Shown here: piece by piece, positions 6,833-36,407 of the stretch
How positions within the stretch are numbered: position 1 is the first letter of the stretch
Layout: each line of letters opens with the position of its first letter
NCBI GenBank assembly: GCA_009377795.1
Contig: WHTJ01000002.1
Coordinates: forward strand, 1-64,000
DNA: 64,000 nt
Direction of reading: 5' to 3'
From: Propionibacteriales bacterium
GTDB taxonomy: Bacteria > Actinomycetota > Actinomycetes > Propionibacteriales > Nocardioidaceae
Translations under genes and position numbers: made by a program
Notes under the pieces: model-generated
Seen by the model: the letters and a program-made list of their open reading frames with translations, nothing else
Database searches by the model: none
Told to the model about the DNA's origin: nothing

Positions 6833-9190
6833 TCAAATGTCCGCGGTCTCCGGGCCGGCGTCGCGGTCGCCACCACGGATGGGCAGCGAGGCGAAGGCGT
6901 CGGGCGGCTCCCGCCACACGTCCGGCGACTCTCCCCGGCGGGCCGCCTCGATCGCCCGCCACACCCGGTCCGGTGTGCACGGCATGTCGATGTGGCGTAC
7001 GCCGAGGTGACGGACGGCGTCGATGACCGCGTTCTGTACGGCCGGCGTCGATCCGACGGTCGCTGACTCGCCGATTCCCTTCGCGCCCAGCGGATTCAGT
7101 GGCGTGGGTGTCTCCGTGTTCGAGACCTCCAGCCACGGCACGTCGACCGCCGACGGGAGCGCGTAGTCGGCGAACGTCGACGTCATCGGCGTGCCGTCCC
7201 CGTCGTACACGAACTCCTCCCACAGCGCCTGTGCGATGCCCTGCGCCGCGCCGCCGTGCTGCTGGCCGGCGACGATCAGCGGGTTGATCACCCGGCCGCA
7301 GTCGTCGACCGCGACGTGGCGAACGGGGGTGACCCGGCCGGTCTCGGTGTCCACCTCGACCGCCGAGACGTGGGCGCCGAACGGGAAGGTGGCGCCGTCC
7401 TGGGTGGCGCTCAGCCCGGACCGCAGCGGGATGTCGTGCTCATGCGCGTACGCCGCGACCTCCGCCCAGCGCACCGACGCATCCGGCACTCCGGCGACGT
7501 GGAACGAACCGTCGCCGAGCACGACGTCGTCCGGCGCCGCCTCGAGCAGGTCCGCCGCGACGTCCCGAGCCTGCTCGAGTACCGCGTCGGCGGCGGTCGC
7601 GACGGCGCTGCCGCCGAGCTGGAGGGAGCGGGAGCCACCGGTGCCGCCTCCGGAGGGAACGCGGTCGGTGTCCGACTGGACGTACGAGATGGACTCGATC
7701 GGCAGCCCGAGCCGGTCGGCGACGATCATCGAGAACGAGGTGGCGTGACCCTGGCCATGCGCCGACGTACCCGACATCGCGGTGGCGGTGGCGTCCGGAT
7801 GGATCTCGACGAAGCCGTACTCCTGGGGTCGGACGCCGCCGGTGATCTCGGCGTAGACGGCGACTCCGATGCCCAGCTGGCGGACGTCGCCACGCTCCCG
7901 TCGGCGCCGCTGCTCGGCGCGCTGCTCGTCGTATCCGACGACGCGCAGGGCCTCCCGCAACGGCAGGTCGTAGTCGCCGCTGTCGTACGTCGCTCCGGTC
8001 CGCGTCTTGTACGGGAACGCGTCCGGCGGGATCAGGTTGCGCCGGCGCAGCGCGACCGGATCGATGTCGAGCTCGTCCGCGGCGAGGTCCATCATCCGCT
8101 CGAGCAGGGCGGTCGCCTCGGGGCGGCCGGCGCCCCGGAACGCGCCGACCGGCGACGTGTTGGTGAGCGCCGCGATGCTCCCGTACGACAGCGCGGGGAT
8201 GTGGTAGACGCCCTGCGCCATGGTGCGGGTTGACCTGAGCACGAATGCGCCGCCGAACCCGGCGTACGCGCCGCAGTCGCCGATCAGCCGCAAGCGCATG
8301 CCGCCGATCGTGCCGTCCTTGCGGAGGCCGAGCTCGGCGTACTGCACCTGACCCCGGCCGTGCATCGACAGCATCGCCTCGCTGCGCGTCTCGGTCCACT
8401 TCACCGGCCGGCCAAGACGCCGAGCTGCGCCGATGACGGCGATGTGCTCCGTGGGGAGCCCCGGCTTGCCTCCGAACGCGCCGCCGACGTGGGGCGTGAC
8501 GACCCGTACGTCCTCGGGTGCCAGGTCGAACGCCCGGGTGATCATCGAGCGGGCCAGGTGCGGCATCTGGGACGAGATGTGCACGGTGAGCCGGTCGCCG
8601 GGTTCGACGAGTACGGCGTTGCCCTCGATCGGCGCGACCGCGACCCGCTGGTTCTCCATGCGGGCTCGGACGACGTGGTCGGCACCGGCGAACGGGTCGA
8701 CGCTCGGGTCGTCCCGTTCGCCGGCGGCGATGTTGCTGCCCAGGTCCTCGAACTGCAGGGGGGCGCCGGGCTCGAGCGCGGCGTCGGGGTCCGTGACGAC
8801 GGGCAGCGGTTCGAAATCGACGTCGACGAGCTCCAGCGCGTCGGCCGCGACCGCCGCGCTGGTGGCGATCACGACCGCGACCTGCTCGCCGACGAAGCGG
8901 ACGCGGTCGGTCGCGAGCGGAGGCCGCCGGCAGGCGTCGTTGACCGGCACGAACCCGCCGGACGGAGCGAGGTCGAGGTCGGCGGCGGTGTAGACGGCGA
9001 CGACGCCGGGCAGCTCGCGGGCCGCGCCGGCGTCGATCGCCGTGATGCGCGCGTGCGGGAACGTCGAACGGACGAACGCCGCGTGCAACACGTCGGGGAC
9101 CTGGTGGTTGTCGACGAACGTTCCGCGCCCGCGTACGAGATCAGGGTCTTCGACGCGGCGGACGGATGTTCCGAGTATTGATCCGGGCAC
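6833..9190 (-). CDS. Molybdopterin-binding hydroxylase large subunit (xanthine/CO dehydrogenase family, form II)
   Basis: A full-length large subunit of 785 residues. It starts with the usual GTSVRRVEDPDLVRGRGTF and carries AFRGAGR near 348, which marks the form II/xanthine dehydrogenase-like clade rather than true CO dehydrogenase (AYRCSFR). The active-site glutamate lies in GAKGIGE near 704. These enzymes hydroxylate heterocycles or oxidise aldehydes and need an FAD subunit and a [2Fe-2S] subunit, neither of which is encoded anywhere in this window. It lies 13 bases downstream of a Gfo/Idh/MocA gene and is probably the last gene of that leftward operon. Confidence 0.9.
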   Translation of the reverse strand: MPGSILGTSVRRVEDPDLVRGRGTFVDNHQVPDVLHAAFVRSTFPHARITAIDAGAARELPGVVAVYTAADLDLAPSGGFVPVNDACRRPPLATDRVRFVGEQVAVVIATSAAVAADALELVDVDFEPLPVVTDPDAALEPGAPLQFEDLGSNIAAGERDDPSVDPFAGADHVVRARMENQRVAVAPIEGNAVLVEPGDRLTVHISSQMPHLARSMITRAFDLAPEDVRVVTPHVGGAFGGKPGLPTEHIAVIGAARRLGRPVKWTETRSEAMLSMHGRGQVQYAELGLRKDGTIGGMRLRLIGDCGAYAGFGGAFVLRSTRTMAQGVYHIPALSYGSIAALTNTSPVGAFRGAGRPEATALLERMMDLAADELDIDPVALRRRNLIPPDAFPYKTRTGATYDSGDYDLPLREALRVVGYDEQRAEQRRRRERGDVRQLGIGVAVYAEITGGVRPQEYGFVEIHPDATATAMSGTSAHGQGHATSFSMIVADRLGLPIESISYVQSDTDRVPSGGGTGGSRSLQLGGSAVATAADAVLEQARDVAADLLEAAPDDVVLGDGSFHVAGVPDASVRWAEVAAYAHEHDIPLRSGLSATQDGATFPFGAHVSAVEVDTETGRVTPVRHVAVDDCGRVINPLIVAGQQHGGAAQGIAQALWEEFVYDGDGTPMTSTFADYALPSAVDVPWLEVSNTETPTPLNPLGAKGIGESATVGSTPAVQNAVIDAVRHLGVRHIDMPCTPDRVWRAIEAARRGESPDVWREPPDAFASLPIRGGDRDAGPETADI

Positions 9191-11622: not shown

Positions 11623-12327
11623 ATGGAAGCTATCAAGTTGGGTCGCAAACGTTCTGAGGAGCAGCGGGTCGTGAGTCTGGCTATCGGCGAAGACGAACGC
11701 CGTACGGCGCATCAACTCGTGCGCGACACGTTGCGGCAGGCGATCCTGACCGGGCAGATCTCTGGCGGCGAGCGCCTCGTCCAGGCCGAGCTCGCCCAGC
11801 AGATGCGGGTCAGCACGACGCCGGTACGCGAGGCCCTCCGAGACCTCGCGGCCGAGGGCCTGATCCGGCTGGACGCGCACCGCGGCGCCATCGTGCACAG
11901 CCCGAGCCAGTCCGAGCTCGAGGAGATCTACCGGCTGCGCCAGCTGCTCGAGCCGGAGATCATGGAGCGCGCGATCGCGCACATCACCGACGAGCAGCTG
12001 GAGGAGGCCACGCGCATCCTCCAACGCGCGGACCAGGAAGAGGACCCGACCACCTGGATCGACCTCAACCGGCAGTTCCACCGGCTCTTCACCCGGGCGA
12101 CGCACTCCACCCGGCTGGCGGCGATCGTCGAGTCCCTCCAAGACAGCGCCACGCTGTACATCCTGGTCGCGCTCACCCGCGGCACCCGCAGCACCGACGA
12201 GGCCAACGCGCAGCACTGGCAGCTCCTCGAGGCGGTGCGCGCCCGCGACGTGCAGGCCGCCCGCAAAGTGATGCTCGCGCACATCCACCAGACCGTGGAC
12301 GCGCAGCCCGACCTCCCGGAACGTTGA
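11623..12327 (+). CDS. GntR-family transcriptional regulator, FadR subfamily (FCD domain)
   Basis: A regulator of 234 residues. The winged helix (about 28-95) has the GntR pattern with VSTTPVREALRDLAAEGLI as the recognition region. The all-helical FCD ligand domain (about 105-225) has metal-site candidates Asp and His in DLNRQFH and further histidines in NAQHW and AHIHQT. FCD regulators usually bind an organic acid and are often displaced from DNA by it. It is the only transcription factor recognised in the window. It is flanked by two copies of the recurring operator, including the perfect one immediately downstream, so it is the likely regulator of the catabolic units. Confidence 0.93.
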   Translation: MEAIKLGRKRSEEQRVVSLAIGEDERRTAHQLVRDTLRQAILTGQISGGERLVQAELAQQMRVSTTPVREALRDLAAEGLIRLDAHRGAIVHSPSQSELEEIYRLRQLLEPEIMERAIAHITDEQLEEATRILQRADQEEDPTTWIDLNRQFHRLFTRATHSTRLAAIVESLQDSATLYILVALTRGTRSTDEANAQHWQLLEAVRARDVQAARKVMLAHIHQTVDAQPDLPER

Positions 12328-12354
12328 CAATAGCCACTCTGCATCATGTAGGAT
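12324..12354 (+). promoter_or_regulatory. Probable promoter TTGACA-N19-TAGGAT for the D-2-hydroxyacid dehydrogenase unit
   Basis: A consensus -35 box TTGACA (12324-12329) overlaps the stop codon of the GntR/FCD gene. TAGGAT (12349-12354) fits a -10 box with a 19-base spacer, which is slightly long. The -10 lies inside the perfect inverted repeat, so bound regulator would block RNA polymerase. Confidence 0.5.
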
Positions 12355-12363
12355 GCAGAGTGG
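12334..12363. promoter_or_regulatory. Perfect 12-bp inverted repeat, best operator copy
   Basis: The arms CCACTCTGCATC (12334-12345) and GATGCAGAGTGG (12352-12363) are exactly complementary around ATGTAG. The core GCATC-ATGTAG-GATGC is the best match to the site found at other promoters here. No T-run follows, so a terminator function is less likely than an operator. Confidence 0.7.
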
Positions 12364-15675: not shown

Positions 15676-16788
15676 ATGAGAACCAGAACAGGACTCCTCG
15701 CGGCAGCGATGACCGCCGCGATCGTCGCCGCGGGCTGCGTGGCGCAAGAGGACGACCCCCCAGCGGAAGACACCTCCGCGGCCGCGGAGGACTGGGAGCC
15801 GGAACTCGTCGACGGCGAACTCCAGCCGCTCCCGGACGGATTCCCCGATGACGACATCACCCTCGTCAATGTCGACGTCGCGGGCTCCAGGGACGGCATC
15901 TACGCCCGGGACCTGCAGCGGATTCTCGAGGACATCTCACCGGTGGACATCACGGTCTCCGACGAACCGGCGACCCAGGGCGGCACCGTCTACGCCATGG
16001 CCGACGTCACGACCCGCCCCGGCGGGACCGAGGGCTACTACCCGATCATCTCGTCGATGCCGGGGACGTCGACCGACTTCCTCATCGAACCCATCGAGGA
16101 CGACCTCGGGCTGACCCTGGAGGACATCACGTTCCTCATCTCCACCGAGGTCCACCCGTACGTCATCGCACAGCGTGCCGACGCACCCTGGGGTCAGAGC
16201 TTCGAGAAGTTCGTCGAGTACGGGCAGGAGAATCCCGGAGACCTGCGGTACATCTCCCACGGCGTCGGCTCCGGTCAGGACCTCGCCATGGAGTGGATGC
16301 TGAGCGAGCTCGGCATCGAGGTCCAGAAGATCCCCGGCGAGGACTCCGTCCAGGAGGTGGCCGCGGTCGCGGCCGGTGAAGGCGACTTCACGATGAACCG
16401 CCCGGACGACATCTCCCCGGTCGAGCAGGACGGCAGGATCGAGTCGATCTTCTTCAGCAGCGAGGAGGTTCCGGAGGCGTGGGCGGACATCCCCGGTGTG
16501 GCGTCGGCGAAGGACTACGAGAAGTTCGGCCTGCCGGACGCCTCCTGGGGCGTCGTGCTCGGGTTCATGCTGCCGGCCGAGGTGCCGGACCTGCACGAGC
16601 GGTGGCTGTACGCCCTGTTCGAGGCCGCGACCGAGACCGAGCAGTACCAGCAGCGCGGCGAGACCGTACCGGCGCTCCAGCTCCAGCTCCTCTCCACGCA
16701 GGAGGCCACCGACGTCGCCCACGACGCGTATGACTTCGCCGGGCCGATCGTCCGCGAGGCCGGTCTGGGCGCAGAAGAGAACGAGTGA
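15676..16788 (+). CDS. tctC: Tripartite tricarboxylate transporter substrate-binding lipoprotein (TctC-like)
   Basis: A protein of 370 residues with a lipoprotein signal peptide (hydrophobic stretch 7-19, lipobox AAGC, Cys21) and an acidic linker. A periplasmic-binding-type domain follows. Position at the head of a TctB-TctA pair identifies it as the receptor of a secondary tripartite carboxylate importer. It is more diverged from standard TctC than the second copy at 31840-32970. It should be anchored outside the membrane and set the ligand range of the system. It is the first gene of a nine-gene operon that continues into CoA metabolism. Confidence 0.8.
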   Translation: MRTRTGLLAAAMTAAIVAAGCVAQEDDPPAEDTSAAAEDWEPELVDGELQPLPDGFPDDDITLVNVDVAGSRDGIYARDLQRILEDISPVDITVSDEPATQGGTVYAMADVTTRPGGTEGYYPIISSMPGTSTDFLIEPIEDDLGLTLEDITFLISTEVHPYVIAQRADAPWGQSFEKFVEYGQENPGDLRYISHGVGSGQDLAMEWMLSELGIEVQKIPGEDSVQEVAAVAAGEGDFTMNRPDDISPVEQDGRIESIFFSSEEVPEAWADIPGVASAKDYEKFGLPDASWGVVLGFMLPAEVPDLHERWLYALFEAATETEQYQQRGETVPALQLQLLSTQEATDVAHDAYDFAGPIVREAGLGAEENE

Positions 16789-17402
16789 ACGCCTTCATGG
16801 CCCACCGGAGCTCCGAGGAGGTGTCGCACCGCTGGGAGCCGACCGATCCCGGCGAACCACCCGTCGAACGGATCGCGATGGTGGACCGTCGCATCGACAT
16901 CGCGCTCGCGGCGGCGCTCGCAGCACTCGGCGTCGCGCTGATCGTGCTCTCCGGCGACATCCGGGCCGGCAGCATCCCCGACCCGATCGGCGCCGGTGGC
17001 ATGCCGCGCGCGCTCGGAGCGTTCATGGTCGTCGCCGGCGTGGTGCTGATCGCACGCCGGCTGGTCTCCTGGCGCCGAAACCCCGGACACCTCGTACCGG
17101 CGGACGGCGGCACGGGCGACGAGCCCGACTACCCCTCCTCGGCCGTCCGTGCGTTCGGCATGCTCGCGGCCGCCTGGGGATGGGCGATGCTGATCCCGCT
17201 GGTCGGCTACCTGACCTCGTCGTTCCTGCTCGCGGTCGTCGGCATCGCGTCCATGAAAGTACGGTCTCCGTGGAAGCTCATCGTGGTACCGGCCCTCTTC
17301 GCGGCCATCACCTGGCTGTTGTTCAACCGGCTGTTCGGCATCCCGTTCCCGGCCGGGCCGATCGAGCAGCTGGGTGAGGAGTACATCCCGAGCCTGGAGT
17401 GA
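16785..17402 (+). CDS. tctB: Tripartite tricarboxylate transporter small membrane subunit (TctB-like)
   Basis: A protein of 205 residues with four hydrophobic segments (about 35-55, 65-85, 118-140 and 150-185), the TctB plan. The GTG start overlaps the stop of the receptor gene (GTGA). The first 30 residues are polar, so translation may begin a few codons later at an internal ATG. The protein is required with TctA for carboxylate uptake driven by proton or sodium gradients. Confidence 0.85.
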   Translation: MNAFMAHRSSEEVSHRWEPTDPGEPPVERIAMVDRRIDIALAAALAALGVALIVLSGDIRAGSIPDPIGAGGMPRALGAFMVVAGVVLIARRLVSWRRNPGHLVPADGGTGDEPDYPSSAVRAFGMLAAAWGWAMLIPLVGYLTSSFLLAVVGIASMKVRSPWKLIVVPALFAAITWLLFNRLFGIPFPAGPIEQLGEEYIPSLE

Positions 17403-17459
17403 TCCCGTTTCCGCACGCCGCCGGGTAGTCCTGACGTAGAAGACAGATGGGGACACTGA

Positions 17460-18995
17460 ATGCTAGGACAGGGGCTCACCTCCCTCGCCGAGGGTTTTCA
17501 GCTGCTGACCGACCCGATCGTCTTGGTCATGATCTTCGCCGGTGTGGTTTGGGGCTGCATCTGCGGAGTCCTGCCGGGGACGGGCTCCGGAGTGGCGCTG
17601 GGTGTCGCCGTACCCGTCACCTTCACCCTCGAACCGGTACCCGCGGTGGCGTTCCTGGTCACGATCAGCGTCGCGGTCTCCTACGCCAACGGCCTGCCGG
17701 CGACGGTGCTCGGCATCCCGAACGCCCCGCCCAGCGTGTTCACCGCCATCGAGGGGTACGCGCTGACCAAGCAGGGCAAGGGCGGACTGGCGATCGCGCA
17801 CAACTGGTTCTCGTGCGTCACCGGGCAACTCATGAGCATCCCGTTCTTCGTGGTGCTGATCGTCCCGCTGTCGACCCTGAGCTACAGCTTCCTCGCGCCC
17901 GAGATGTTCGCCCTGTACTGCCTGGGCATGGCCGCGCTGGTCAGCCTGACCGGCAAGAACATCCTGAAGGGGTTCGCCGCCGCGGCGGTCGGGTTCAGTA
18001 TCGCCTTCATCGGACCGGATCCGGTGAGCAACGTCCCGCGCTTCGACTTCGACGTTCCCGAGCTACGCGTGGGGCTCGAGATCATCCCCGTCGTACTCGG
18101 ATTCGTCACGGTGAGCGAGATCATCCGCGGGATGCGCCAGGTGTACAGCTGGGACGAGCTCGTCGGGCCGGCGGGCATGGTCACCAAGTTCCCCGGATTC
18201 GGTGTCCTCCGGAAGTCGTTGCGCCCGATCTTCACCGGAAGCATCATCGGCACCCTCGTCGGCGCGATCCCCGGCCTCAGCGGGACCGCGGCGGCCGTCA
18301 TGTCGTACAACCAGGCGAAGCTGACCTCCAAGACACCGGAGCAGTTCGGCAAGGGCAGCGTGGAGGGGATCTCCAGCAACGAGTCCGCACAGAACGCCTC
18401 GCAGGCCGGCGAGATGGTGCCGACGCTCGGTCTGGGAATTCCGGGCAGCGACTCGATGGTCCTCGTGCTCGGCGCCCTCCTCCTCCAGGGGTTCGTGCCC
18501 GGGCCGCGGCTGATCACCGAGTCCCCCGAGCTCCTGTACGCCACGGTCGCCGGACTCCTGGGGACTGTGTTCTACCTCTTCCTGATCGGCTGGCCGACCG
18601 CGAAGCTCGTGCTCCAGGTGTCCCGGGTGGACCGGCGGATAGTCCTGCCCCTCGCGCTACTCATGACGCTGGTCGGCGTGTACTCGCTGCGCCGCTCGGT
18701 GTTCGACGTGTTCGTCCTGCTGATCTGCGGCGTGATCGGTTACTTCATGCTTCGCTACGGCTACTCGATCCAGGCCGCCGGCGTCGCGGTGATCCTCGCC
18801 GGCGGGTTCGAGTCCAACCTGCGGCAGGGGCTGTTGTTGGAGGACTCCAGTCTGATCGGGTTCGCCACCCGGCCCTGGACGGCGGTCATCCTGTCCGCCG
18901 CGCTCGCGCTGATCGTGTACGGGACCATGGCGACGGTGAGGCTGGTACGACGGGAACGGCGGCTGGCCGAGAGCGGCCAGCTGCCGGTTGGGTGA
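17460..18995 (+). CDS. tctA: Tripartite tricarboxylate transporter large membrane subunit (TctA-like)
   Basis: A protein of 511 residues with about eleven hydrophobic segments. It holds the two inverted family motifs: CGVLPGTGSG near 40 and GAIPGLSGTAAAVMSYNQAK near 275. The related GLGIPGSDSMVL lies near 325. It forms the transport channel. The gap to the TctB gene is 57 bases and to the next alcohol dehydrogenase gene 22 bases. The order receptor-small-large is one usual for the family. The downstream CoA-transferase suggests the imported acid is activated to a CoA thioester. Confidence 0.92.
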   Translation: MLGQGLTSLAEGFQLLTDPIVLVMIFAGVVWGCICGVLPGTGSGVALGVAVPVTFTLEPVPAVAFLVTISVAVSYANGLPATVLGIPNAPPSVFTAIEGYALTKQGKGGLAIAHNWFSCVTGQLMSIPFFVVLIVPLSTLSYSFLAPEMFALYCLGMAALVSLTGKNILKGFAAAAVGFSIAFIGPDPVSNVPRFDFDVPELRVGLEIIPVVLGFVTVSEIIRGMRQVYSWDELVGPAGMVTKFPGFGVLRKSLRPIFTGSIIGTLVGAIPGLSGTAAAVMSYNQAKLTSKTPEQFGKGSVEGISSNESAQNASQAGEMVPTLGLGIPGSDSMVLVLGALLLQGFVPGPRLITESPELLYATVAGLLGTVFYLFLIGWPTAKLVLQVSRVDRRIVLPLALLMTLVGVYSLRRSVFDVFVLLICGVIGYFMLRYGYSIQAAGVAVILAGGFESNLRQGLLLEDSSLIGFATRPWTAVILSAALALIVYGTMATVRLVRRERRLAESGQLPVG

Positions 18996-25493: not shown

Positions 25494-26804
25494 TCACGGG
25501 CCGGACGACAGCAGCCGGCGTCGCAGTGACTCGAGGGCGAACGCGGCCGCGCGGGTCTGCACGAGGTCGCGGTCGCCGTTGATGTACGTCTCGTCGGCGT
25601 GGATCTCGTCTCCGGGTCCCGCGATCGCCCAGATCGCCGTACCCTCCGGTGGGCCGCCGGGCGCGACGTCGCCGGGCGCGACGCCGACGGTCGCGACCGC
25701 GAGATCGACCCCGAACCGTTCGCGAGCGCCGCGCGCCAGCGCGACCGCGACCTCCTCCTCCGCCACGAGACCTCGACCACCCAGCGGCCCGAGGTCCAGA
25801 CCGAGCTCGGTCACCGCGGTCTCCGCGGCGTACACCACGACCCCACCGCGCAAGTAGTCCGCCGCGCCGGGAGCAGAGGACAGCGCGGCGCTGACCCGAC
25901 CCGCGGTGCACGACTCCGCGGTCGCGATGGTCCATCCCCGAGCGCGCAGCAGATGCGCGATCTCGTCCTCGAGCCTGCGCTCGTCCACGCTCGTGACCGC
26001 GTCGCCGAGGCTGCCGGCCGCCTCCTCCACGACCGCCGTCGCCCGCTTGCGCGCATCCAGGGGTGTCGGTCCGGTCGCGGTGACCCGTACCTGCACCTCG
26101 CCCGCCTTGGCGAGGAAGCCGAGCTCGATCCCGTGCTCCGGATCGGACGGCTTCGCGGAGGCCGCCTCGAGCCGGTCCGTGATCTCGGTGAGCGCCTCCC
26201 CGATCCACGACTCCCCCGCGCCGGCGACGTGCAGCGTTCTCGTCACCCGGGCCTGCCCACCGGCGCGCTCGACGAGGTCGGGAAGCACATCGCGCTCCGC
26301 GGTGCCCTTGTACTCCCATGGCACGCCCGGCAGCGCATGAACCGTCACCCGGCGCCCGGCACGCTCGGCACGCTCGGCAGACGGAGCATCGAGGACGAAA
26401 CCGGCGGCCGAGCCGAGCGGCTCATGAATCCGCGCACCGATCGGTACGTCCGCCTGCCGGAGCGCCCCGGACGGCATGGGGCGGTCCAGCCGGCGGTACA
26501 CGTCCTCCAGATGCGCCACCAGCTCCTTGCGGCGTTCGAGGCCGACGCCGGCGAAGTCCGCGATCGCATACCTGGTGAGGTCGTCGGAGGTGGGACCGAG
26601 ACCGCCGCTCACGATGAGCACGTCCGCCCGGTCGGCCAGCCATCGTAGGGCGTCCACGATCGCGTCGTGGTCGTCGCCCACCAGCAGCTCGGCGACGACC
26701 CGGCACCCGCTCTCCATCACCCGGCGCGCCATCCAGGCGGCGTTGGTGTCGATGATCTCCCCGGCGACCAGCTCGGACCCCACCGAGCACATCGCCACCC
26801 TCAT
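25494..26804 (-). CDS. cinA: CinA family protein (MoCF-like domain plus nicotinamide-nucleotide amidase domain)
   Basis: A protein of 436 residues. The N-terminal MoCF_biosynth/CinA domain (about 1-175) begins VAMCSVGSELVAGEIIDTNA and has VSGGLGPTSDDLTR. The C-terminal PncC-type deamidase domain (about 275-430) has the signature AESCTAGRVSAAL with the catalytic serine. CinA recycles NMN to nicotinic acid mononucleotide, and the N-terminal domain can act as an ADP-ribose pyrophosphatase. The ATG overlaps the stop of the Gfo/Idh/MocA gene (ATGA). It is the last gene of a leftward seven-gene run headed by the second Tct transporter, an unusual place for it. Confidence 0.92.
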   Translation of the reverse strand: MRVAMCSVGSELVAGEIIDTNAAWMARRVMESGCRVVAELLVGDDHDAIVDALRWLADRADVLIVSGGLGPTSDDLTRYAIADFAGVGLERRKELVAHLEDVYRRLDRPMPSGALRQADVPIGARIHEPLGSAAGFVLDAPSAERAERAGRRVTVHALPGVPWEYKGTAERDVLPDLVERAGGQARVTRTLHVAGAGESWIGEALTEITDRLEAASAKPSDPEHGIELGFLAKAGEVQVRVTATGPTPLDARKRATAVVEEAAGSLGDAVTSVDERRLEDEIAHLLRARGWTIATAESCTAGRVSAALSSAPGAADYLRGGVVVYAAETAVTELGLDLGPLGGRGLVAEEEVAVALARGARERFGVDLAVATVGVAPGDVAPGGPPEGTAIWAIAGPGDEIHADETYINGDRDLVQTRAAAFALESLRRRLLSSGP

Positions 26805-27943
26805 AGGCCGAGACCGTCGCGCAGGGCCTGCGGGTCCGGCGGCAGCTTGACCGGCTCGCCGGTCTTGACCGACAGGTCCATCGCCATGGTGATCAGCAGG
26901 TTGCGGTGACCGTCCTGCGCAGTGGCGTGCTGGGTGTCGCGTCCCGAGACCAGCCGGTTGTACCAGTCGTTCGTCTCCTCCCGCATCGGTCCCCACAGCC
27001 CGTACTCCCCGTGGTCTCCCGGCGGGTAGCTGCCCACGAAGTCGACGTACCGCGGCTGTGCCGCCTCGAACCCCTTCGGCCGGTACCCGGGCCCCTGCGG
27101 GGTCTCGGACGCGACCAGCACGTCGCGGTGCGTGTCCTCGATGTCGAGTACGCCGGTCTCGCCGACGACCCCAATCTCCAGCCCGTACACCGCGCCGGGC
27201 CAGGTGATCGGCAACGCCCAGCTGATGTTCATGCTCCACAGCGTCCCGTCGGCGAGCGTGAAGATCGCGAGCGTGTTGTCCTTCGTACCGAGCTCGCCGA
27301 GGACCTTGTCGCCGGCCCTGGCGTACACCTCCACCGGCTCCTTGCCCTCGATGCCCTCGAGCAGCCACAGGCACACGTCGAGACTGTGCGTTCCGGAGAC
27401 CACCATCGGCGTGAGCGTCGCCCGCTGGTCGGTGCGCTCCAGGGTCGCGAGCGGCACCATGCGGTTCATGAACGCCCGGGTGACCACCGTGGTCACGTCC
27501 CCGATCGCGCCGTCCTGAATGCGCTGTCGGGCCGTGATGAACCTGCGGCGGAACCGCTGGGTGTAACCCACGACCGCGTCGATGCCGTTGTCCTCGATCG
27601 CACGGAGTACCTCGGCGGACTGGATCGGATCGGTGGCCAGCGGCTTCTCGATGAACAGCTTGTGACCGTGCTCGACGCTGGCCAGGATCGGGTCGACGTG
27701 CCAGTTCTCGTCGGTGGCCACGATGACCGCGTCGACCTCCGGCCGGGCGAGCAGGGCGCGGAAGTCACCGGTCGCGAAATCCGCTTCGGTGTCGCGCGCC
27801 AGGTTGTTCATCACCTCGGCGTCGATGTCGCAGACCCCGAGCCAGCCGACGGCGGGATGCTCGCGGGCCAGCTCGGCGCGAATCCGCCCGATCGTCCCGC
27901 TGCCGATGACGGCCAGTCCGAACTTGTCGTTCTCCACGTTCAC
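26801..27943 (-). CDS. Gfo/Idh/MocA family NAD(P)-dependent oxidoreductase
   Basis: A protein of 380 residues with Rossmann signature AVIGSGTIG near residue 12 and FIEKPLATD near 97. The GTG start has GAGGAG five to six bases upstream. It lies between the enolase-superfamily gene and CinA with tiny gaps, so all are probably one transcript. An acid-sugar or polyol substrate would fit the neighbouring enolase-superfamily enzyme, but the sequence does not prove it. Confidence 0.88.
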   Translation of the reverse strand: MNVENDKFGLAVIGSGTIGRIRAELAREHPAVGWLGVCDIDAEVMNNLARDTEADFATGDFRALLARPEVDAVIVATDENWHVDPILASVEHGHKLFIEKPLATDPIQSAEVLRAIEDNGIDAVVGYTQRFRRRFITARQRIQDGAIGDVTTVVTRAFMNRMVPLATLERTDQRATLTPMVVSGTHSLDVCLWLLEGIEGKEPVEVYARAGDKVLGELGTKDNTLAIFTLADGTLWSMNISWALPITWPGAVYGLEIGVVGETGVLDIEDTHRDVLVASETPQGPGYRPKGFEAAQPRYVDFVGSYPPGDHGEYGLWGPMREETNDWYNRLVSGRDTQHATAQDGHRNLLITMAMDLSVKTGEPVKLPPDPQALRDGLGL

Positions 27944-27961: not shown

Positions 27962-29077
27962 TTACTCGCTGATATCGAGCGCCTCGACGGCGGCTCGGTC
28001 GACTTCGACACCGAGACCGGGCGAGTCGACGGCTTCCAGATGCAGTTGGCCGTCCTTCACCTCGAGCGGTTCGGCGACCACGTCGGTACGGCTGAAGTGC
28101 GGCGTGATCGCCGTGCCCAGCGGCAGCTCGGGGGCCGCCGCGGCCACGTGCAGGAGTGCCGCGGACCCGATGCTGCTGTCCCCGCACATCCCGGCGAGGA
28201 ACGGCTGCACGCCGGCGAGGTGGCACAGGTCGAGCAGCGCCCGGGCTCCCTCGATCCCACCCGCCTTCAGCAGCTTCACGACGACGCCGCCCGGCGTCGT
28301 ACCGGCGGTCAGGGCCGACAGCAGCTGCGCCGGGTCGTACACGCTCTCGTCCGCGGCCACGACCACACCCGGCGTCGCGCTGAGCTGCGCCAGCCCCGCG
28401 AGATCCCACCGAGACACCGGCTGCTCGATCACGCCGACGCCCAGCTCCGGCGCGTGCCGGGCGAAGGCAGCCGCCTGCGCGCGTCCCCACGCCTGGTTCG
28501 CGTCGACGTAGATCCGGGTGTGTGGCCCGGCCGCCTCGCGTACCCGCTCGACGGCGCGCAGGTCCGCGGCCACGTCGTCCCGGCCGACCTTGAGCTTCAG
28601 AATCCGAAAGCCCGCGTCCGTCGCCACCTGCGCGTCGTGGGCGTCCTGGTCGTCGTCGAAGTGGCCGAGGTGGTAGACGACGGGTACGGCGGTACGGCGG
28701 GCGCCGCCGAGCAGCCGGTGAAGCGGTACGCCGAGCATGCGACCGCGCAGATCCCACAGTGCCATCGACAGCGCGCACCGGGCACCGATCAACCCGCCGA
28801 GCCGTCCGCCGATCTCGGGCAGCGACGCGGCCACCGCCTCCGCGTCCCGGCCGAGCACGGACTCGGCGGCCGTCCGCTCGACCGCCGCGCGCGCCGACGC
28901 CGGGGTCTCGCCGGTGAACGTGATGTTGAGCGGCGCCTCACCCCAGCCCTCCACGCCGTCGGCGCGCAGGTTCACGAGCAGCAGCCTGGACGCCGTGGTG
29001 GTCTTGTTCGACGTGCTGAAGACCGTGGTCAGCGGGATCTCCACGTTGTAGACCCGGACCTCGGAGATCGTGGGCAT
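27962..29077 (-). CDS. Enolase-superfamily enzyme, mandelate racemase/muconate lactonizing group
   Basis: A protein of 371 residues. The barrel has the KxK motif in LKLKVG (near 165) and the metal ligands Asp in VDANQAW, Glu in IEQP and Asp/Glu in ADES. A lysine in VVKLLKAGG opposes KxK, the arrangement of the muconate lactonizing subgroup. Such enzymes cycloisomerise, dehydrate or racemise carboxylates. The ATG with GAGG upstream is preferred to a GTG four codons earlier. It is followed after 18 bases by the Gfo/Idh/MocA gene. Confidence 0.9.
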   Translation of the reverse strand: MPTISEVRVYNVEIPLTTVFSTSNKTTTASRLLLVNLRADGVEGWGEAPLNITFTGETPASARAAVERTAAESVLGRDAEAVAASLPEIGGRLGGLIGARCALSMALWDLRGRMLGVPLHRLLGGARRTAVPVVYHLGHFDDDQDAHDAQVATDAGFRILKLKVGRDDVAADLRAVERVREAAGPHTRIYVDANQAWGRAQAAAFARHAPELGVGVIEQPVSRWDLAGLAQLSATPGVVVAADESVYDPAQLLSALTAGTTPGGVVVKLLKAGGIEGARALLDLCHLAGVQPFLAGMCGDSSIGSAALLHVAAAAPELPLGTAITPHFSRTDVVAEPLEVKDGQLHLEAVDSPGLGVEVDRAAVEALDISE

Positions 29078-29104
29078 CGCGTTCCTCACCTCGCGTTCAG
29101 CGCT

Positions 29105-29828: not shown

Positions 29829-30344
29829 TCACAGGAGCTCATGGCCGATCTCGAAGTACGCCGGCGGCACCTGGAGGTCGAGCTGTCCGATCATGAGATA
29901 TACGGCGATCGGGACCGCCAGGCCGACGACTGCGACTCCCGGCCAGGTCCACCGCGCCTCCAGCCGGATGAACGCAACGACGAACACCGTCGCCGCGACG
30001 AAGACACCGGCCAGGTTCAGCAGGACGATGAAGCCGGCGAACCACGCCAGGTAGCGCAGCGCCAGGAGCAGCCCCCGGGCGCCCATCTCGCGGACCAGGG
30101 AGTCGACGTCGATTCCACGCAGGGAGATCGGACGCCCCTTCGCGAAGCCGGCCAGGTCGATGCTCATCTGGACCGCCGTACCCACCACGATGATCCCGGC
30201 CGCCGCGAGCGGGAAGTACGCCGCACGCGGCCGGAAGGTCAACGCCTCGAGGAACGCCCAGGCCCCGATCAGGAGCACGAGCACGTTGAGCGTCAGGCGG
30301 GCGATCTCCCACAACCGGACCTGCGTCGGCGCCGTATCGCTCAC
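29829..30344 (-). CDS. tctB: Tripartite tricarboxylate transporter small membrane subunit (TctB-like), second system
   Basis: A protein of 171 residues with four hydrophobic segments (about 12-30, 38-58, 90-125 and 135-155), the TctB layout. The GTG start overlaps the stop of the TctA-like gene (GTGA). Gene order here is receptor, large subunit, small subunit, unlike the first system, so the two systems are not a simple recent duplication. Confidence 0.82.
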   Translation of the reverse strand: MSDTAPTQVRLWEIARLTLNVLVLLIGAWAFLEALTFRPRAAYFPLAAAGIIVVGTAVQMSIDLAGFAKGRPISLRGIDVDSLVREMGARGLLLALRYLAWFAGFIVLLNLAGVFVAATVFVVAFIRLEARWTWPGVAVVGLAVPIAVYLMIGQLDLQVPPAYFEIGHELL

Positions 30345-31843
30345 TGGCCGTCCACCCCCGTGAGCTGCGCTTGCTGCTCCCGCCGGCCGCGCACCTGTCG
30401 CATCAGCTCGACGACGAAGCCGAGCACGATCAGGGCGCCGATCACCAAGACGCCCGGGCGACCCAGCCAGTCCATGCCGTACCGGCTGATCGAGAGGTGC
30501 AGGTAGCGCTCCGCGGGTTCGGCCAGCACGAACCCGACGATGAACGGGGCCCGCGGCCACCCGACCTGCTTCCACCACCAGCCCGCCGTGCCGAGAACGA
30601 ACAGGACGGCGATGTCGCCCCAGTGGTGCGAGGACTGGTATGCGGCGTACGTGATGACCACGAACAGGCACGGGACCAGGACCTTGGGCGGGACCGTCGT
30701 GATCCGGGCGATCTGCCGGGTGAGCAAGAAGCACGCCGCCGCGCCGAAGCAGTTCGCCATCGCGTACGTCCAGACGACGGACAGGGTGAGCGGGAGCTGC
30801 TCGTCGATCATGTCGGGACCGGCTTTTACGCCGAGCAGGAGCAGACCGCCGAGCAGAACCGCCGTGGTCGGGCTGCCGGGGATGCCGAACAGCAGGGTGG
30901 GGACGAGCGCACCCGCCGTGACCGCGTTGTTCGCGCTCTCCGGCGCGACGACCCCGCGAATGTCACCGGAGCCGAATTTCGAGGACCCCTTCACGGTCTG
31001 CCTGGCCATGCCGTACGCGAACCAGTCCGCCACCGCGCCGCCGAGGCCGGGCACGACCCCGGTGAAGTTGCCGAGCACGGACGATCGCGCGATCAGGAAC
31101 TTGTTGCGCAGGGCGTCGCGTACCCCGTCCAGGCGCCGGCCGAGGAGCCGGACCTTTCCCGCGATCGGCCGGTCCTCGATCAGCAGGTCGAGCATCTCCG
31201 GAACGGCGAAGAGGGCCAGTGCGACCAGGACGATCGACAGCCCGCCGAACAGATAGAGCACGTCGAACGTGTAGCGGTACTCGGCGGTCGCGGGCGCGGC
31301 GCCGATCGCGCCCGCCAGCAGCCCGAGCGCACCCACCACAAGACCGGGAATGGGCTGACCGGCCGTGAGCAGGGCGACCAGGCAGAGGCCCAGGAGCGAG
31401 AGCATGAACAGCTCCGGCGATCCGACCGCGAGCACCAGCGGCCGGATGATGACCAGCGTGGCGAGCAGGACGGCGGCACCGATCAGGCCGCCCGCCAGAG
31501 AGGAGGTGAACGCCGCACCGAGTGCGCGCTCGGCCTGCCCCTGCCGGGCCAGCGGGTAGCCGTCCAGGATGGTCGCCTGCGCGCCCGCGGAGCCGGGGAC
31601 GCCGAGCAAGACCGAGGGAAAGGTGTCCGCGGTGCTGATCACCGCTGCCATTCCCATCAGCAGGGCGAGCCCCGAATAGGCGTCCATGCCGAAGATGAAC
31701 GGCAGCAGCAACGACATCCCGGTGACGCCGCCCAACCCGGGTATGACACCGACGATGAGGCCGACCATGGTGCCGAAGAGCACCCAACCGACGTGCTCCA
31801 GACTCAGGACCTGCGTCAGGGCCTCACCGGCGGCATCGATCAC
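30341..31843 (-). CDS. tctA: Tripartite tricarboxylate transporter large membrane subunit (TctA-like), second system
   Basis: A protein of 500 residues with about eleven membrane segments. It holds GVIPGLGGVTGMSLLLPF near 33-50 and GVVPGLGGAVADWFAYGMA near 265, the paired TctA motifs, plus FGIPGSPTTAVLLGG near 320. The GTG start overlaps the receptor stop and its own stop overlaps the TctB start, so the three genes are translationally coupled. Confidence 0.92.
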   Translation of the reverse strand: MIDAAGEALTQVLSLEHVGWVLFGTMVGLIVGVIPGLGGVTGMSLLLPFIFGMDAYSGLALLMGMAAVISTADTFPSVLLGVPGSAGAQATILDGYPLARQGQAERALGAAFTSSLAGGLIGAAVLLATLVIIRPLVLAVGSPELFMLSLLGLCLVALLTAGQPIPGLVVGALGLLAGAIGAAPATAEYRYTFDVLYLFGGLSIVLVALALFAVPEMLDLLIEDRPIAGKVRLLGRRLDGVRDALRNKFLIARSSVLGNFTGVVPGLGGAVADWFAYGMARQTVKGSSKFGSGDIRGVVAPESANNAVTAGALVPTLLFGIPGSPTTAVLLGGLLLLGVKAGPDMIDEQLPLTLSVVWTYAMANCFGAAACFLLTRQIARITTVPPKVLVPCLFVVITYAAYQSSHHWGDIAVLFVLGTAGWWWKQVGWPRAPFIVGFVLAEPAERYLHLSISRYGMDWLGRPGVLVIGALIVLGFVVELMRQVRGRREQQAQLTGVDGQ

Positions 31844-32970
31844 TGCGTGAACTCATCGGGGTAGTTCTCCTGTACGAAGTTCTGGATCCACTCGACGGAC
31901 TCGTCTGGGATATCCTGGACGGTCTGCTGCGCCTGATCGAGCGCCTCCGGCTCGTAGATCGGCTCGGCGGGGCTCAGCTCCTGCCAGCCCTCGACGTAGT
32001 CCGAGTTCTCGATCGCGTCGGAAAGCCCGGAGCGGAGCGTGGCCACCGCGTCCGGCGGCGCGTCCGGGTGCATGGTCATCGAGTGCGCCACGTGGATGAC
32101 CGCCATGACGTCCTGGAACGCCTCCCACGCCGGGCCGCTCGGCGGCTCGCCGTAGATCATCTCGTGCGCCTCGTCCACCGTCGGCGTGTCCGGAAGCAGG
32201 GGGTCGCGCTCGAAGGTCCCGTCCTCCTGGAGGAAGCCGAAGGCGACCAGCGGGATCGCCTCGCCCTTCTCCTCCATCTGCTGGTTCTGGTTCCACACGA
32301 CGTTCGTGGTGGCGTCGAAGTTCGTCTCGCCCTGCTGGAACGCGAGCACGGTGTCGCCGGTGCCGCCGTACCCCCAGATCTCCTGCATGTCCTCCCGTAC
32401 GCCGAGCACCTCCAGGGCGAGGACGAACATGAGATCTGTCGAGATCGGCGAAACGCCACCCTTGACCAGCTCGCCGGCATGCTCGGGGAGGTCCTCGACG
32501 GTCTCGATCCCGGTGTCCGGGTGGACGTAGAACATGCCGGTGTACGGGAACGCCGCGATCGGGGTGAGCTCCGCGACGTCGTACTGCACCGCCGACTCGC
32601 CCACCAGCCACGGCATGGTCGTCGTGAAGGCGGAGAGGAAGATCGTGTAGCCGTCCGGCGACATCTCGTTGAAGTAGCGGTTGCCGCCGCCGATGCCGCC
32701 GGCGGACTCGTCGTGCTCGACCTGCACATCAGGGTTGCCGGGCACGAACTCGTTGATGTACGGCGAGTTGAACTGCGCCGTCGCGTCGGCGCCGCCACCG
32801 GGGGCGGCCGGCACCAGGATGGTGACCGTCTCGCCGTCGTAGAAGTCGGAGCTGGCCTCGCCACCCCCCTCCTCGGCCGACGTCCCGCCGCCGTCGTCCT
32901 GAGCACACCCGGTGATGACCAGAGCCATGGCCAAGCTGAGTAGCAGTGGGGACGTCGGTCGGGCTCGCAT
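31840..32970 (-). CDS. tctC: Tripartite tricarboxylate transporter substrate-binding lipoprotein (TctC-like), second system
   Basis: A protein of 376 residues with a lipoprotein signal (hydrophobic 9-20, lipobox ITGC, Cys22) and a glycine/glutamate-rich linker. The TctC domain contains the family segment PAAPGGGADATAQ (about 52-64), which contributes to the ligand carboxylate pocket. AGGAAGGGG lies eight bases before the ATG. It heads the leftward seven-gene run, with a well-matched operator 47 bases upstream. Confidence 0.92.
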   Translation of the reverse strand: MRARPTSPLLLSLAMALVITGCAQDDGGGTSAEEGGGEASSDFYDGETVTILVPAAPGGGADATAQFNSPYINEFVPGNPDVQVEHDESAGGIGGGNRYFNEMSPDGYTIFLSAFTTTMPWLVGESAVQYDVAELTPIAAFPYTGMFYVHPDTGIETVEDLPEHAGELVKGGVSPISTDLMFVLALEVLGVREDMQEIWGYGGTGDTVLAFQQGETNFDATTNVVWNQNQQMEEKGEAIPLVAFGFLQEDGTFERDPLLPDTPTVDEAHEMIYGEPPSGPAWEAFQDVMAVIHVAHSMTMHPDAPPDAVATLRSGLSDAIENSDYVEGWQELSPAEPIYEPEALDQAQQTVQDIPDESVEWIQNFVQENYPDEFTQ

Positions 32971-33016
32971 ATCTCGGCCCCTTCCTGATGAGGCTGGCAC
33001 CCGCTTCCCGAATTCT

Positions 33017-33033
33017 TACATCATATAGGATGC
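33017..33033. promoter_or_regulatory. Putative GntR/FCD operator ahead of the second Tct system
   Basis: TACATCATATAGGATGC has both half-sites (ACATC and GATGC) of the shared pattern. On the minus strand it contains TATGAT, a good -10 for the Tct genes; on the plus strand TAGGAT could serve the DctP-like gene. Confidence 0.62.
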
Positions 33034-33112
33034 CGATTGCACGTCAAGGGAGAGCTGTCCTGCGGTACGTGCGCTTGCGCGCACGGTGTGCATGACACGT
33101 CGAAGGAGACCC

Positions 33113-34036
33113 ATGACCGGACCCGTCCATGTACGTCTCGGCGGCTACGCGCCCGCCGACAGCACCCACGGCCAGGCTCTGGACCGCATCGCCGCCGGCC
33201 TCCGCGCGGGTCTCGGCGACCGGGTCAAGGTCGAGATCGAGCACAACATCCTCGACCGCGGCCGCCCGGCACAGGCCCTGCTCTCGGAGGTCGAGTCGGG
33301 CGCCACCACGGCGTGTTTCTTCTCCACCAGCTACCTCGCCGACCGGGTACCGGATCTCGCGATCCTGGACCTCCCGTACGTCTTCGGCTCGCTCGGGCAC
33401 GCGCACGCCTGCCTCGACGGCGACCTCGGTACGCGGCTGTCCGAGCGGACCCGGGCCGCGACCGGCCTGCTCCCACTCGGCTACTGGGACAACGGGTTCC
33501 GCCACCTCAGCAACGCGCACCGCGAGGTCCGCACACCGGCCGACTGCCGTGGGCTCCGCGTCCGGCTACAGCCGAACTGGGCGCACGAACGCCTGTTCCG
33601 CGAGCTCGGCGCCGAGCCGGTGCCGAACGACCTCAGCGCCGGGATCCGCATGCTGCGCTCCGGCGAGCTCGATGCGCAGGAGAACCCGCTGGCGAACTTC
33701 GTGGCGTACGGCGTGCACGAGCTGCATCCGCACCTCACCTTCACCGGTCACGCGTACGGCGCGCGCGGCGTCTACGCGAGCGCCCGGCAGCTCGCCACGT
33801 GGCCTGACTCCGACCTCGAGGTGCTGCACGAGTCCGTCGCCACGGCGATCGCTCAGCAGCGGTCGGCGGCCGCGGCCAAGGAGGCCGAGCTCGAGACCTG
33901 GCTCACCGCTCGCGGCACCCGCCTGCTCCGGCTCGGCGAGGAGGAGTACGCCGGCTTCCGGACCGCCGCCGCACCGGTCCTGGAAGAGGCCGCCTTGCGG
34001 CTCGGCGAGGAACCGTTCGCGCTGATCGAGACCTGA
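33113..34036 (+). CDS. DctP-family (TRAP-type) solute-binding protein without a signal peptide
   Basis: A protein of 307 residues covering the DctP domain from its first strand (HVRLGGYAPADSTHG) to its last helix. The family features DLPYVFGSLGHAHACLDG (about 83-100), the Arg in LRVRLQPN (about 145-152) that would bind a ligand carboxylate, and SGELDAQENPLANF (about 183-196) are present. No hydrophobic leader exists at the chosen ATG (AAGGAG upstream) or at an ATG nine codons earlier. No DctQ or DctM gene is in the window. It is therefore predicted to be cytoplasmic. It precedes a hydroxyisobutyrate-dehydrogenase-like gene by 13 bases. Confidence 0.82.
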   Translation: MTGPVHVRLGGYAPADSTHGQALDRIAAGLRAGLGDRVKVEIEHNILDRGRPAQALLSEVESGATTACFFSTSYLADRVPDLAILDLPYVFGSLGHAHACLDGDLGTRLSERTRAATGLLPLGYWDNGFRHLSNAHREVRTPADCRGLRVRLQPNWAHERLFRELGAEPVPNDLSAGIRMLRSGELDAQENPLANFVAYGVHELHPHLTFTGHAYGARGVYASARQLATWPDSDLEVLHESVATAIAQQRSAAAAKEAELETWLTARGTRLLRLGEEEYAGFRTAAAPVLEEAALRLGEEPFALIET

Positions 34037-34049
34037 GCCGGAGGCCGAG

Positions 34050-34982
34050 ATGGACAAACCGCGAGTCGGCGCCGTCGGGGTCGGGCTGCTCGGCTCGGCC
34101 CTGACCGGAACGCTGCTGCAGGAGGGTTACGAGGTACGGGCCTACGACCCCGACCCGAAACGGGTGCGCGAGCACGAGGATCGCGGCGGCCGGGGTGCGT
34201 CCTCGGTCCGCTCCGCGGTCGAGGGAGCCGACATCGTCCTGCTCGCCCTCCCGACCGGCGCGATCGTTCGTGAGGTCTGCCTGGGAGACGACGGAATCGC
34301 GGATTCCGCGACACCCGGCACCCTCGTCGTCGACGCGACGACGGCCCGCCCCGACGACTCGATCGAGACCGGCCAGGCCCTCGCCGAGCGCGGGATCCCG
34401 TTCCTCGACGCCAGCGTCAGCGGCTCCAGCGCGATGGCCTGGGAGCGGGACATCGTGTTCCTGGTCGGCGGGGACGACGGCGACGTCGCGCGAGCTCGCC
34501 CGATGCTGGCGTCCATGGCCCGGGCGGTGCATCACGTCGGACCGCCGGGCGCGGGCGCGCGGACAAAGCTGATCGTGAACCTCGCGCTCGGGATCCACCG
34601 GCTGGCGCTCGCGGAGGCGCTCACGTTCGGGGAGCAGTACGGCATGGATCTCGGGCGGCTGCTGGACGTGCTGAAGGACAGCGCGGCGTACAGCAGGGCG
34701 ATGGACGGTTGGGGCGACCGCATGGTGACCGGCGACCACGGTACGCCGAGGTCCCGGATCCGCCAGCACGCCAAGGACGTGCGACTCATGCTGGACGAGG
34801 GTGCCGCGAGCGGAGCACCGATGCTGCTGACGTCGACGATGGCGCAGGTGCTGCAGGTCGCGCAGCAACAGGGGCTCGGGGACGCGGACAACTCCGCGGT
34901 GATGGAGGTGCTGCGCCGGCTCGCCGGCCGTAGGAAGGGCTGGCTGGGTGCTAGGCGGAGCCGGCGACGTCAGCCTCGGTGA
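34050..34982 (+). CDS. 3-Hydroxyisobutyrate dehydrogenase-like NAD(P)-dependent oxidoreductase
   Basis: A beta-hydroxyacid dehydrogenase of 310 residues. The dinucleotide motif is VGAVGVGLLGSAL near 6, the substrate motif lies in DASVSGSSAMAWE (about 125-137), and the catalytic lysine is in GARTKLIVNLALG near 173. The C-terminus is basic and runs 32 bases into the convergent monooxygenase-like gene. It should oxidise a 3-hydroxy acid or reduce a tartronate-semialdehyde-like compound. It is co-directional with the DctP-like gene. Confidence 0.87.
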   Translation: MDKPRVGAVGVGLLGSALTGTLLQEGYEVRAYDPDPKRVREHEDRGGRGASSVRSAVEGADIVLLALPTGAIVREVCLGDDGIADSATPGTLVVDATTARPDDSIETGQALAERGIPFLDASVSGSSAMAWERDIVFLVGGDDGDVARARPMLASMARAVHHVGPPGAGARTKLIVNLALGIHRLALAEALTFGEQYGMDLGRLLDVLKDSAAYSRAMDGWGDRMVTGDHGTPRSRIRQHAKDVRLMLDEGAASGAPMLLTSTMAQVLQVAQQQGLGDADNSAVMEVLRRLAGRRKGWLGARRSRRRQPR

Positions 34983-35262
34983 GGACCGCGACCTCGATCG
35001 GCGACTCGAGCAGGTCGGCCACGTTCGCGCGGTAGGCCTTGTAGTAGTCGGCCGCGCGATGGGCCTCCAACGCGGCGGCGTCGGTGTACCGCTCGAACAG
35101 ATGGAACCGGACGGCGTCCTCACCGGACTGGTAAAGGTCGTACACCTCGCATCCCGACTCGCGCCGGGTGTTCTCGACCATGACATCGAGCTCGGCGCGC
35201 AGTGCGTCGACCTTGTCCGGACGAGGAGAGAAGCTGGCGAATACCACCGCTGGAGCGGCCAT
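34951..35262 (-). CDS. ABM-superfamily protein (putative quinol monooxygenase)
   Basis: A protein of 103 residues with the dimeric alpha/beta-barrel ABM pattern: a first strand VVFASFSPRPDKVDALRAEL, then ESGCEVYDLYQ near 40 and FHLFERYTDAAALEAHR near 55. Relatives include YgiN-type quinol monooxygenases and anthrone oxygenases. GGAGG precedes the ATG. It is a single leftward gene that diverges from the Ldh-2 operon, and its 3' end overlaps the end of the dehydrogenase gene. Confidence 0.85.
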   Translation of the reverse strand: MAAPAVVFASFSPRPDKVDALRAELDVMVENTRRESGCEVYDLYQSGEDAVRFHLFERYTDAAALEAHRAADYYKAYRANVADLLESPIEVAVLTEADVAGSA

Positions 35263-35348: not shown

Positions 35349-36407
35349 ATGGCGAACCGCTATCCGGTATCGGCCCTGCAGGCGTTCACCACGACCGTCC
35401 TCGAACAGTACGCCGTACCGCCGGCCGACGCCCGCACGACGGCCACCCGGATGCTGGACGCCGACCTGCGCGGCATGAGCGGTCACGGCGTCCTCCGGCT
35501 CCCCGGATACGCCCGCCGGCTGCGAAGCGGCGGCTACAACCTCAAACCGGACGTGCGGATCGTCCGCGAGTCCCCGGTCAGCGCGCTGGTCGACGGCGAC
35601 AACGGTCTCGGACAGGTCGTCATGACCAAGGCCGCGTCCATCGCGATCGAGAAGGCGGGCCAGAGCGGTCTGGCCTGGGTCGGCGTACGCCGGTCGAACC
35701 ACGCCGGGGCCGGCGGGGTGTACGCCGCCATGCCGCTCGCGCACGACATGATCGGCCTCTACATGGCGATCGGCAACGCCAACCACATGCCGCCGTGGGG
35801 CGGTGTGGACATGCTCCTGAGCACCAACCCGATCGCGGTCGCGATCCCGGCCGGCGACGAGCCGGCGTTCGTGCTCGACATGGCCACGACGCAGGCCTCG
35901 TACGGCCGAATCAAGGTCGCCGCGGATCGCGGCGAGACCATGCCCGAGGGCTGGATGGTCGACCGCCGCGGCCACCCGCTGACCGACCCGAACCGCGCCG
36001 ACGAGGGCTTCCTCATACCGATCGGCGGTTACAAGGGGTACGGGCTGAACCTCGTGATCGGCGCCCTCGCCGGACTGCTCAACGGCGCCGCGCTCGGCAG
36101 CGCGGTCATCGACTTCAACCGCGACTTCGAGACCCCCACCAACACCGGGCAGACGATCGTCGTCGTACGCCCCGACCTGTTCCAGCCGATCGAGGAGTTC
36201 AAAGCCGCCATGGACCGGCACATTCGCGAGCTCAAGTCCTCCACCCCGATGGAGGGTCATCCGGCGCTGCGCGTGCCCGGCGACCAGGCCCCGCAGCGGA
36301 CCGCCGAGATGCGCGAGAACGGCGTACCGCTCGCCGAGGCGACGGTCCGGAGGCTCGCGGGCCTCGCGGACGAGCTCGCCATCACCGACCACCCGTTCCG
36401 GTCATGA
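35349..36407 (+). CDS. Ldh-2 family NAD(P)-dependent oxidoreductase (malate/lactate-dehydrogenase-like)
   Basis: A protein of 352 residues of the second malate/L-lactate dehydrogenase family, which includes ureidoglycolate, sulfolactate and 2,3-diketogulonate enzymes. The conserved histidine is in GMSGHGVLRLPGY near 40, with VRRSNHAGAGGVYA near 118 and STNPIAVAIPAGD near 160. The ATG has GGAGGG upstream. It is the first gene of an operon that contains a second Ldh-2 enzyme, and it overlaps the next gene by four bases. Confidence 0.88.
   Translation: MANRYPVSALQAFTTTVLEQYAVPPADARTTATRMLDADLRGMSGHGVLRLPGYARRLRSGGYNLKPDVRIVRESPVSALVDGDNGLGQVVMTKAASIAIEKAGQSGLAWVGVRRSNHAGAGGVYAAMPLAHDMIGLYMAIGNANHMPPWGGVDMLLSTNPIAVAIPAGDEPAFVLDMATTQASYGRIKVAADRGETMPEGWMVDRRGHPLTDPNRADEGFLIPIGGYKGYGLNLVIGALAGLLNGAALGSAVIDFNRDFETPTNTGQTIVVVRPDLFQPIEEFKAAMDRHIRELKSSTPMEGHPALRVPGDQAPQRTAEMRENGVPLAEATVRRLAGLADELAITDHPFRS

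Follow-up and report, generated by a model that had tools for sequence, protein, structure and literature searches.

We propose, with about even confidence, that the DctP-type protein P0001, encoded at 33113..34036 (+ strand) of the window (the whole analysed 64,000-nt stretch of Propionibacteriales DNA), represents a leaderless, DctQM-less monophyletic DctP subfamily whose members would reside in the cytoplasm and act, most likely as enzymes, on a hydroxy or oxo acid of a catabolic pathway. The absence of a leader, the separate clade, the lack of a partner permease, the kept carboxylate clamp, the altered lid and docking sites, the operon coupling and the operator are seen in the sequences themselves. 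Under the name DctP, proteins are treated in annotation and in models as receptors of importers; if the proposal is true, a whole cytoplasmic, TRAP-uncoupled clade is misannotated under this name. It would then illustrate clearly how a binding protein can become an enzyme or an acid handler inside the cell, with residues specific to the clade, and the gene context would narrow the substrate to hydroxy or oxo acids.

Protein fold, start site and the leaderless clade

The coordinates and the reading frame of the 307-aa ORF were verified. The initial annotation had assigned a full TRAP receptor fold with its ligand-binding Arg region to the protein, and this assignment was borne out by several analyses. 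PF03480 (DctP) was matched over residues 10-293 with 150.8 bits (cut-off 23.4) and was the sole family found in the Pfam search, which returned no match to PF03401 (TctC), NMT1/THI5 or MqnA/MqnD. Among the NCBIfam models, NF037995 scored above its cut-off and TIGR00787 under it (127.9 vs 175). The AlphaFold model reached a pLDDT of 95.6 (71 aligned sequences), and the best among the Foldseek matches listed were TRAP receptors with a TM of about 0.81-0.92. Residues R130, R151 and N191 were found with the published spacing.

The frame of P0001 opens at 33029, the first in-frame base past a stop codon, and the sole other in-frame upstream start, GTG at 33086, adds only nine Arg-rich residues (MCMTRRRRP). 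A hydrophobic segment, a signal peptide and a lipoprotein signal were absent at every start in a rule-based test (not SignalP). The claim that no plausible start carries a signal peptide was thus upheld, and no signal-bearing upstream start exists. The TctC-like receptor gene divergent from dctP (31840..33000, − strand; PF03401 sub-threshold, 20.8 vs 27) bears a lipoprotein signal (LVITGC; MRARPTSPLLLSLAMALVITGC) and served as a same-spot control for leader detection.

A search for leaderless homologues and their neighbourhoods, which had been suggested initially, revealed a conserved multi-phylum clade often coupled to catabolic genes. The genome scan, with one genome per species, yielded 77 loci. 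Proteins of L024-L077 and L100 (about 31-70% identity) were leaderless, and those of L078-L099 (about 33% identity and below) carried a leader where the N-terminus was visible. More than 50 further leaderless relatives were distributed among Actinomycetota, Chloroflexota, Nitrospinota, Tectimicrobiota, Rokuibacteriota and Pseudomonadota. By a stricter rule-based test, a signal-like N-terminus was recorded in 0/52 leaderless proteins tested versus 20/20 secreted relatives. The tree had 89 rows, and a branch with an SH-aLRT of 100 set the 54 leaderless ones apart, with a single change of label; a singleton pseudogene was ruled out by this clade. Nearest to the window were two Nitriliruptorales MAGs (L024 and L025). 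The distribution was patchy, with members in 2 of 396 sampled Actinomycetota genomes, the window's own included, and no high-scoring member in the other 57 relatives searched. When plasmids were searched for annotated clade members, every match had an identity of about 38% or lower and most covered part of the query, and no description of a leaderless DctP clade was found in a non-exhaustive literature search. The orphan, cytoplasmic state is supported as a property of a conserved multi-phylum clade, beyond a single odd gene.

Within about 8 kb in the fetched flanks, DctM was present at 1 of about 54 leaderless loci versus nearly all secreted loci; at that single locus (L076) it lies 2.7 kb away, together with its own DctQ. 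Two seed sequences of the DctM/DctQ models came from wrongly oriented loci, and the genes were found nonetheless. The median pI was 6.5 for leaderless versus 4.5 for secreted proteins, and the Cys content was 3.4 versus 0.5 per protein (one mis-oriented row among the secreted set in both comparisons). Cytoplasmic residence predicts both properties, which are indirect indications. It is highly probable that the protein of this clade is cytoplasmic and has a non-TRAP role.

Neighbouring genes, operator and TRAP components

The reported linkage to a hydroxyacid dehydrogenase was substantiated, as a gene of the HIBADH/tartronate-semialdehyde-reductase type (34050..34982, + strand) starts 13 nt downstream of dctP, in the same order as in L025, L031 and L110. 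Next to it lie an ABM small protein gene (PF03992 by Pfam; 34951..35262, − strand) and an Ldh_2 malate/lactate dehydrogenase gene (35349..36407, + strand), the product of which scored 530.9 bits against a family model built without it. The Ldh_2 family recurs adjoining leaderless dctP. ABM was rejected as a common operon component: PF03992 is also found directly after dctP in L072, but the proteins are mutually unmatched.

Across the operator, dctP faces a TctABC-like transporter, which comprises the TctC-like receptor and a TctA-type permease (30341..31843, − strand). The same strand carries a mandelate racemase/muconate cycloisomerase-like enzyme (27962..29089; named from sequence, not by a Pfam run), of a family common to L034, L037 and L063, and a Gfo/Idh/MocA oxidoreductase (26801..27943), of a family common to L025, L037, L040, L049 and others. 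The window and the leaderless loci have the HIBADH, Ldh_2 and Gfo/Idh families in common, and likewise the MR/MLE, CoA-transferase-like and CinA-like families (names from sequence). The window also holds a second TctC/TctA-type transporter set (15676-18995) and, at 61639-62574, a relative (210 bits) of a polysaccharide-deacetylase family that Burkholderiales loci carry downstream of their leaderless dctP.

Throughout the clade, leaderless dctP often overlaps or abuts same-strand catabolic genes (Ldh_2, HIBADH, cupin, VOC) and also TctC. The orders observed were Ldh_2-DctP-HIBADH (L025 and L110, both encoding the same DctP protein), hydrolase-DctP-HIBADH (L031), DctP-cupin-Ldh_2 (L037, L063), cupin-DctP-Ldh_2-TctCBA (L040), TctC-DctP-VOC-Ldh_2 (L069, L075) and TctC-DctP (L072, L074). 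Within about 8 kb, HIBADH (10/55), cupin (6/55), VOC (20/55), FAH (16/55) and TauD (17/55) were recorded at leaderless loci and each at 0/22 secreted loci, while Ldh_2 was found at 9 of 55 leaderless versus 3 of 22 secreted loci; these counts describe an association in the clade and no enrichment test, because the secreted control loci are few and differ in taxonomy. Some leaderless loci had no coupled neighbour. No regulator or kinase was consistently adjacent in the leaderless loci, with a GntR-like gene about 2 kb off in Nitrospinota loci only. In ten Burkholderiales loci (L041, L042, L051, L053, L054, L057, L058, L061, L065 and L077), leaderless dctP follows the end of a TauE/SafE-type permease gene at a distance of about 26-42 nt.

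A shared operator had also been described. An operator-like dyad, ATCATATAGGATG (33020..33032), lies between the divergent tctC-like and dctP genes, and the description proved accurate in that the 4.58-Mb assembly holds three exact copies of ATCATRTASGATG, at 2253, 12343 and 33020, and no other. With one mismatch allowed, four more copies were found in the assembly, two of them (72080 and 112322) on C23, the 126-kb contig of the window; the backwards control gave zero matches in the assembly. The copy at 12343-12355 sits in a longer dyad between a GntR-type regulator gene (11623..12327, + strand) and a D-2-hydroxyacid-dehydrogenase-like gene, and the copy at 2253 precedes an isopropylmalate/homocitrate-synthase-like gene. 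The GntR protein is a candidate regulator of the dctP/tct promoter, and the confinement of the exact copies to the window, together with the two near-copies on C23, suggests a putative local GntR regulon.

The initial annotation had found DctQ and DctM missing from the window, and the same was true of the whole of C23, on which the P0001 gene is the only TRAP component. The assembly contains several further DctP genes as well as 10 DctM and 7 DctQ places, all off C23, and every DctQ contig also bears DctP. The DctM on C111 was judged from sequence to be a fused permease behind a TAXI-like lipoprotein. Each DctM place is either closely accompanied by a DctP or TAXI receptor of its own or truncated at a contig end; the partners of the C182 and C150 matches are not visible, because both are truncated in this way. 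In the assembly search (exact or one mismatch), no contig with a DctM place gave an operator match, and DctQM genes elsewhere with matched regulation were sought in vain, as no DctQM contig carries the operator.

Cleft residues and related systems

Residues were compared between 22 leaderless representatives (mean identity 41%) and 29 secreted proteins, with positions mapped by alignment. The nearest receptors anchor the carboxylate via R152, R173 and N213, have an aromatic lid at 196 and bind the ligand hydroxyl through an acidic residue at 76 (4P47 numbering; PMC11668362). R130, R151 and N191 of P0001 align with this triad and were invariant in 22/22 leaderless proteins. The lid position 174 was occupied by V/L/I in 21/22 leaderless versus Y/F in 27/29 secreted proteins, position 173 by D/E in 22/22 versus P/A in 27/29, and position 205 by His in 22/22 versus Gln in 25/29. 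An acidic residue near position 51, present in 27/29 secreted proteins, was mostly lost in the leaderless ones, which were further marked by C68 (21/22) and G11-Y12 (22/22). The interaction of SiaP with SiaQM is disrupted when E172 of SiaP is replaced by Arg (PMC9352664); the equivalent position 176 was Glu in 28/29 secreted and 11/22 leaderless proteins, and Ala in the window protein. As the clamp is kept while the lid and docking sites are altered, the protein still looks carboxylate-binding, with a changed pocket and the docking constraint gone. H205, C68 and D/E173 are candidate ligand contacts placed by alignment.

The nearest receptors (4P9K/4PAK, 4XEQ, 7BBR, 4PDH, 4PDD and 4P47), whose reported ligands are largely erythronate or pantoate, share the fold (TM about 0.85-0.92), PF03480 and the R/R/N carboxylate clamp with P0001. 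Unlike those exported receptors, P0001 has no signal and no permease and has lost the aromatic lid, and its clade has gained D/E173 and H205 with a relaxed docking Glu. MqnA/MqnD and THI5/NMT1 are cytoplasmic enzymes with a periplasmic-binding-protein fold. They resemble P0001 in having a receptor-type fold inside the cell but belong to other families, and thus provide a precedent rather than a family-level relative. Dihydroxyphthalate decarboxylase, considered as another leaderless enzyme precedent with a binding-protein fold, was confirmed neither by the literature search nor by plasmid annotation and was set aside. At L046, another receptor-type protein that lacks a signal sequence (7572-8489; PF09084, NMT1/THI5, 45 bits) is encoded about 0.5 kb downstream of leaderless dctP.

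The characterised TRAP receptors SiaP and IseP (PMC4646407, PMC9352664, PMC11668362) have the same Arg-carboxylate clamp and two-domain closing cleft, but P0001 is about 19-22% identical to them in the fold search and differs at the SiaP E172 position. Orphan TctC/Bug receptors of TTT systems (PMC5812351) also lack an adjacent permease, but they are periplasmic TctC proteins, whereas P0001 is a leaderless DctP. According to a part of PMC9602780, SBP Pfam profiles also catch cytosolic single-domain proteins with an alternative function; P0001 is likewise an SBP domain predicted to be cytosolic, and that part of the source names no DctP clade or function.

Possible roles in acid catabolism

We suggest that the acid would enter via another transporter (of the TctABC type in the window), that the cytoplasmic DctP protein would close on an intermediate of the hydroxy- or oxo-carboxylate type, and that this acid would be transformed in the cleft, for example by isomerisation, dehydration or decarboxylation, beside the Ldh_2 and HIBADH dehydrogenases. 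An enzymatic role is tentatively favoured by the uniform cleft remodelling with new polar residues and by the coupling to dehydrogenases, and other binding-protein-fold enzymes are known in the cytoplasm. One conserved reaction fits imperfectly, however, because the neighbouring enzymes differ between clades, and the clamp does not single out an enzyme, because a pure binding protein would keep it too. It is put forward tentatively, at somewhat below even confidence, that a TRAP receptor was recruited to the cytoplasm as a new organic-acid catabolism enzyme family of several phyla, relying on the clamp with D/E173, H205, Y12 and C68.

The earlier interpretation as an intracellular acid sensor, buffer or carrier was partly supported: the protein appears cytoplasmic, orphan and unusual for its family, and the three roles are conjectural. 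A dedicated sensor is disfavoured because no regulator or kinase is consistently adjacent; a sensor paired with a regulator was rejected, the GntR-like gene being limited to the Nitrospinota loci. A cytoplasmic non-catalytic binder, which would buffer or channel an acid that is unstable or toxic on its way between the transporter and the dehydrogenases, or signal its level to another protein, is possible, if doubtful. The intact high-affinity clamp, the unmodified receptor fold and the adjoining transporter genes (TctC in L069, L072 and L074; TauE in the ten Burkholderiales loci) are consistent with it, but the same lack of an adjacent regulator or kinase counts against it, and the lid and nearby residues were changed alike clade-wide, beyond the needs of mere relocation. 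Given the tight catabolic coupling and the remodelled, highly conserved cleft, an enzyme appears at least as likely as a sensor, buffer or carrier.

It is improbable that P0001 is a standard TRAP receptor which is exported by a non-classical route or works with DctQM genes from another part of the genome. Its partners could be sought among the 10 DctM and 7 DctQ places of the genome, and orphan receptors with a permease located elsewhere are precedented in the TTT family (PMC5812351). This explanation is opposed by the 0/52 signals, the high Cys content, the neutral pI and the loss of the docking Glu, and by the DctM places themselves, which have their own DctP or TAXI receptor or are contig-cut and share no contig with an operator match. 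Leader loss does happen in single genes, and a secreted receptor decaying after chance leader loss, or an error in start-site annotation, was considered on this general ground, no result here indicating it. Either is very improbable, since the leaderless start is conserved across phyla, the reading frames are intact and an in-frame stop lies ahead of the start.
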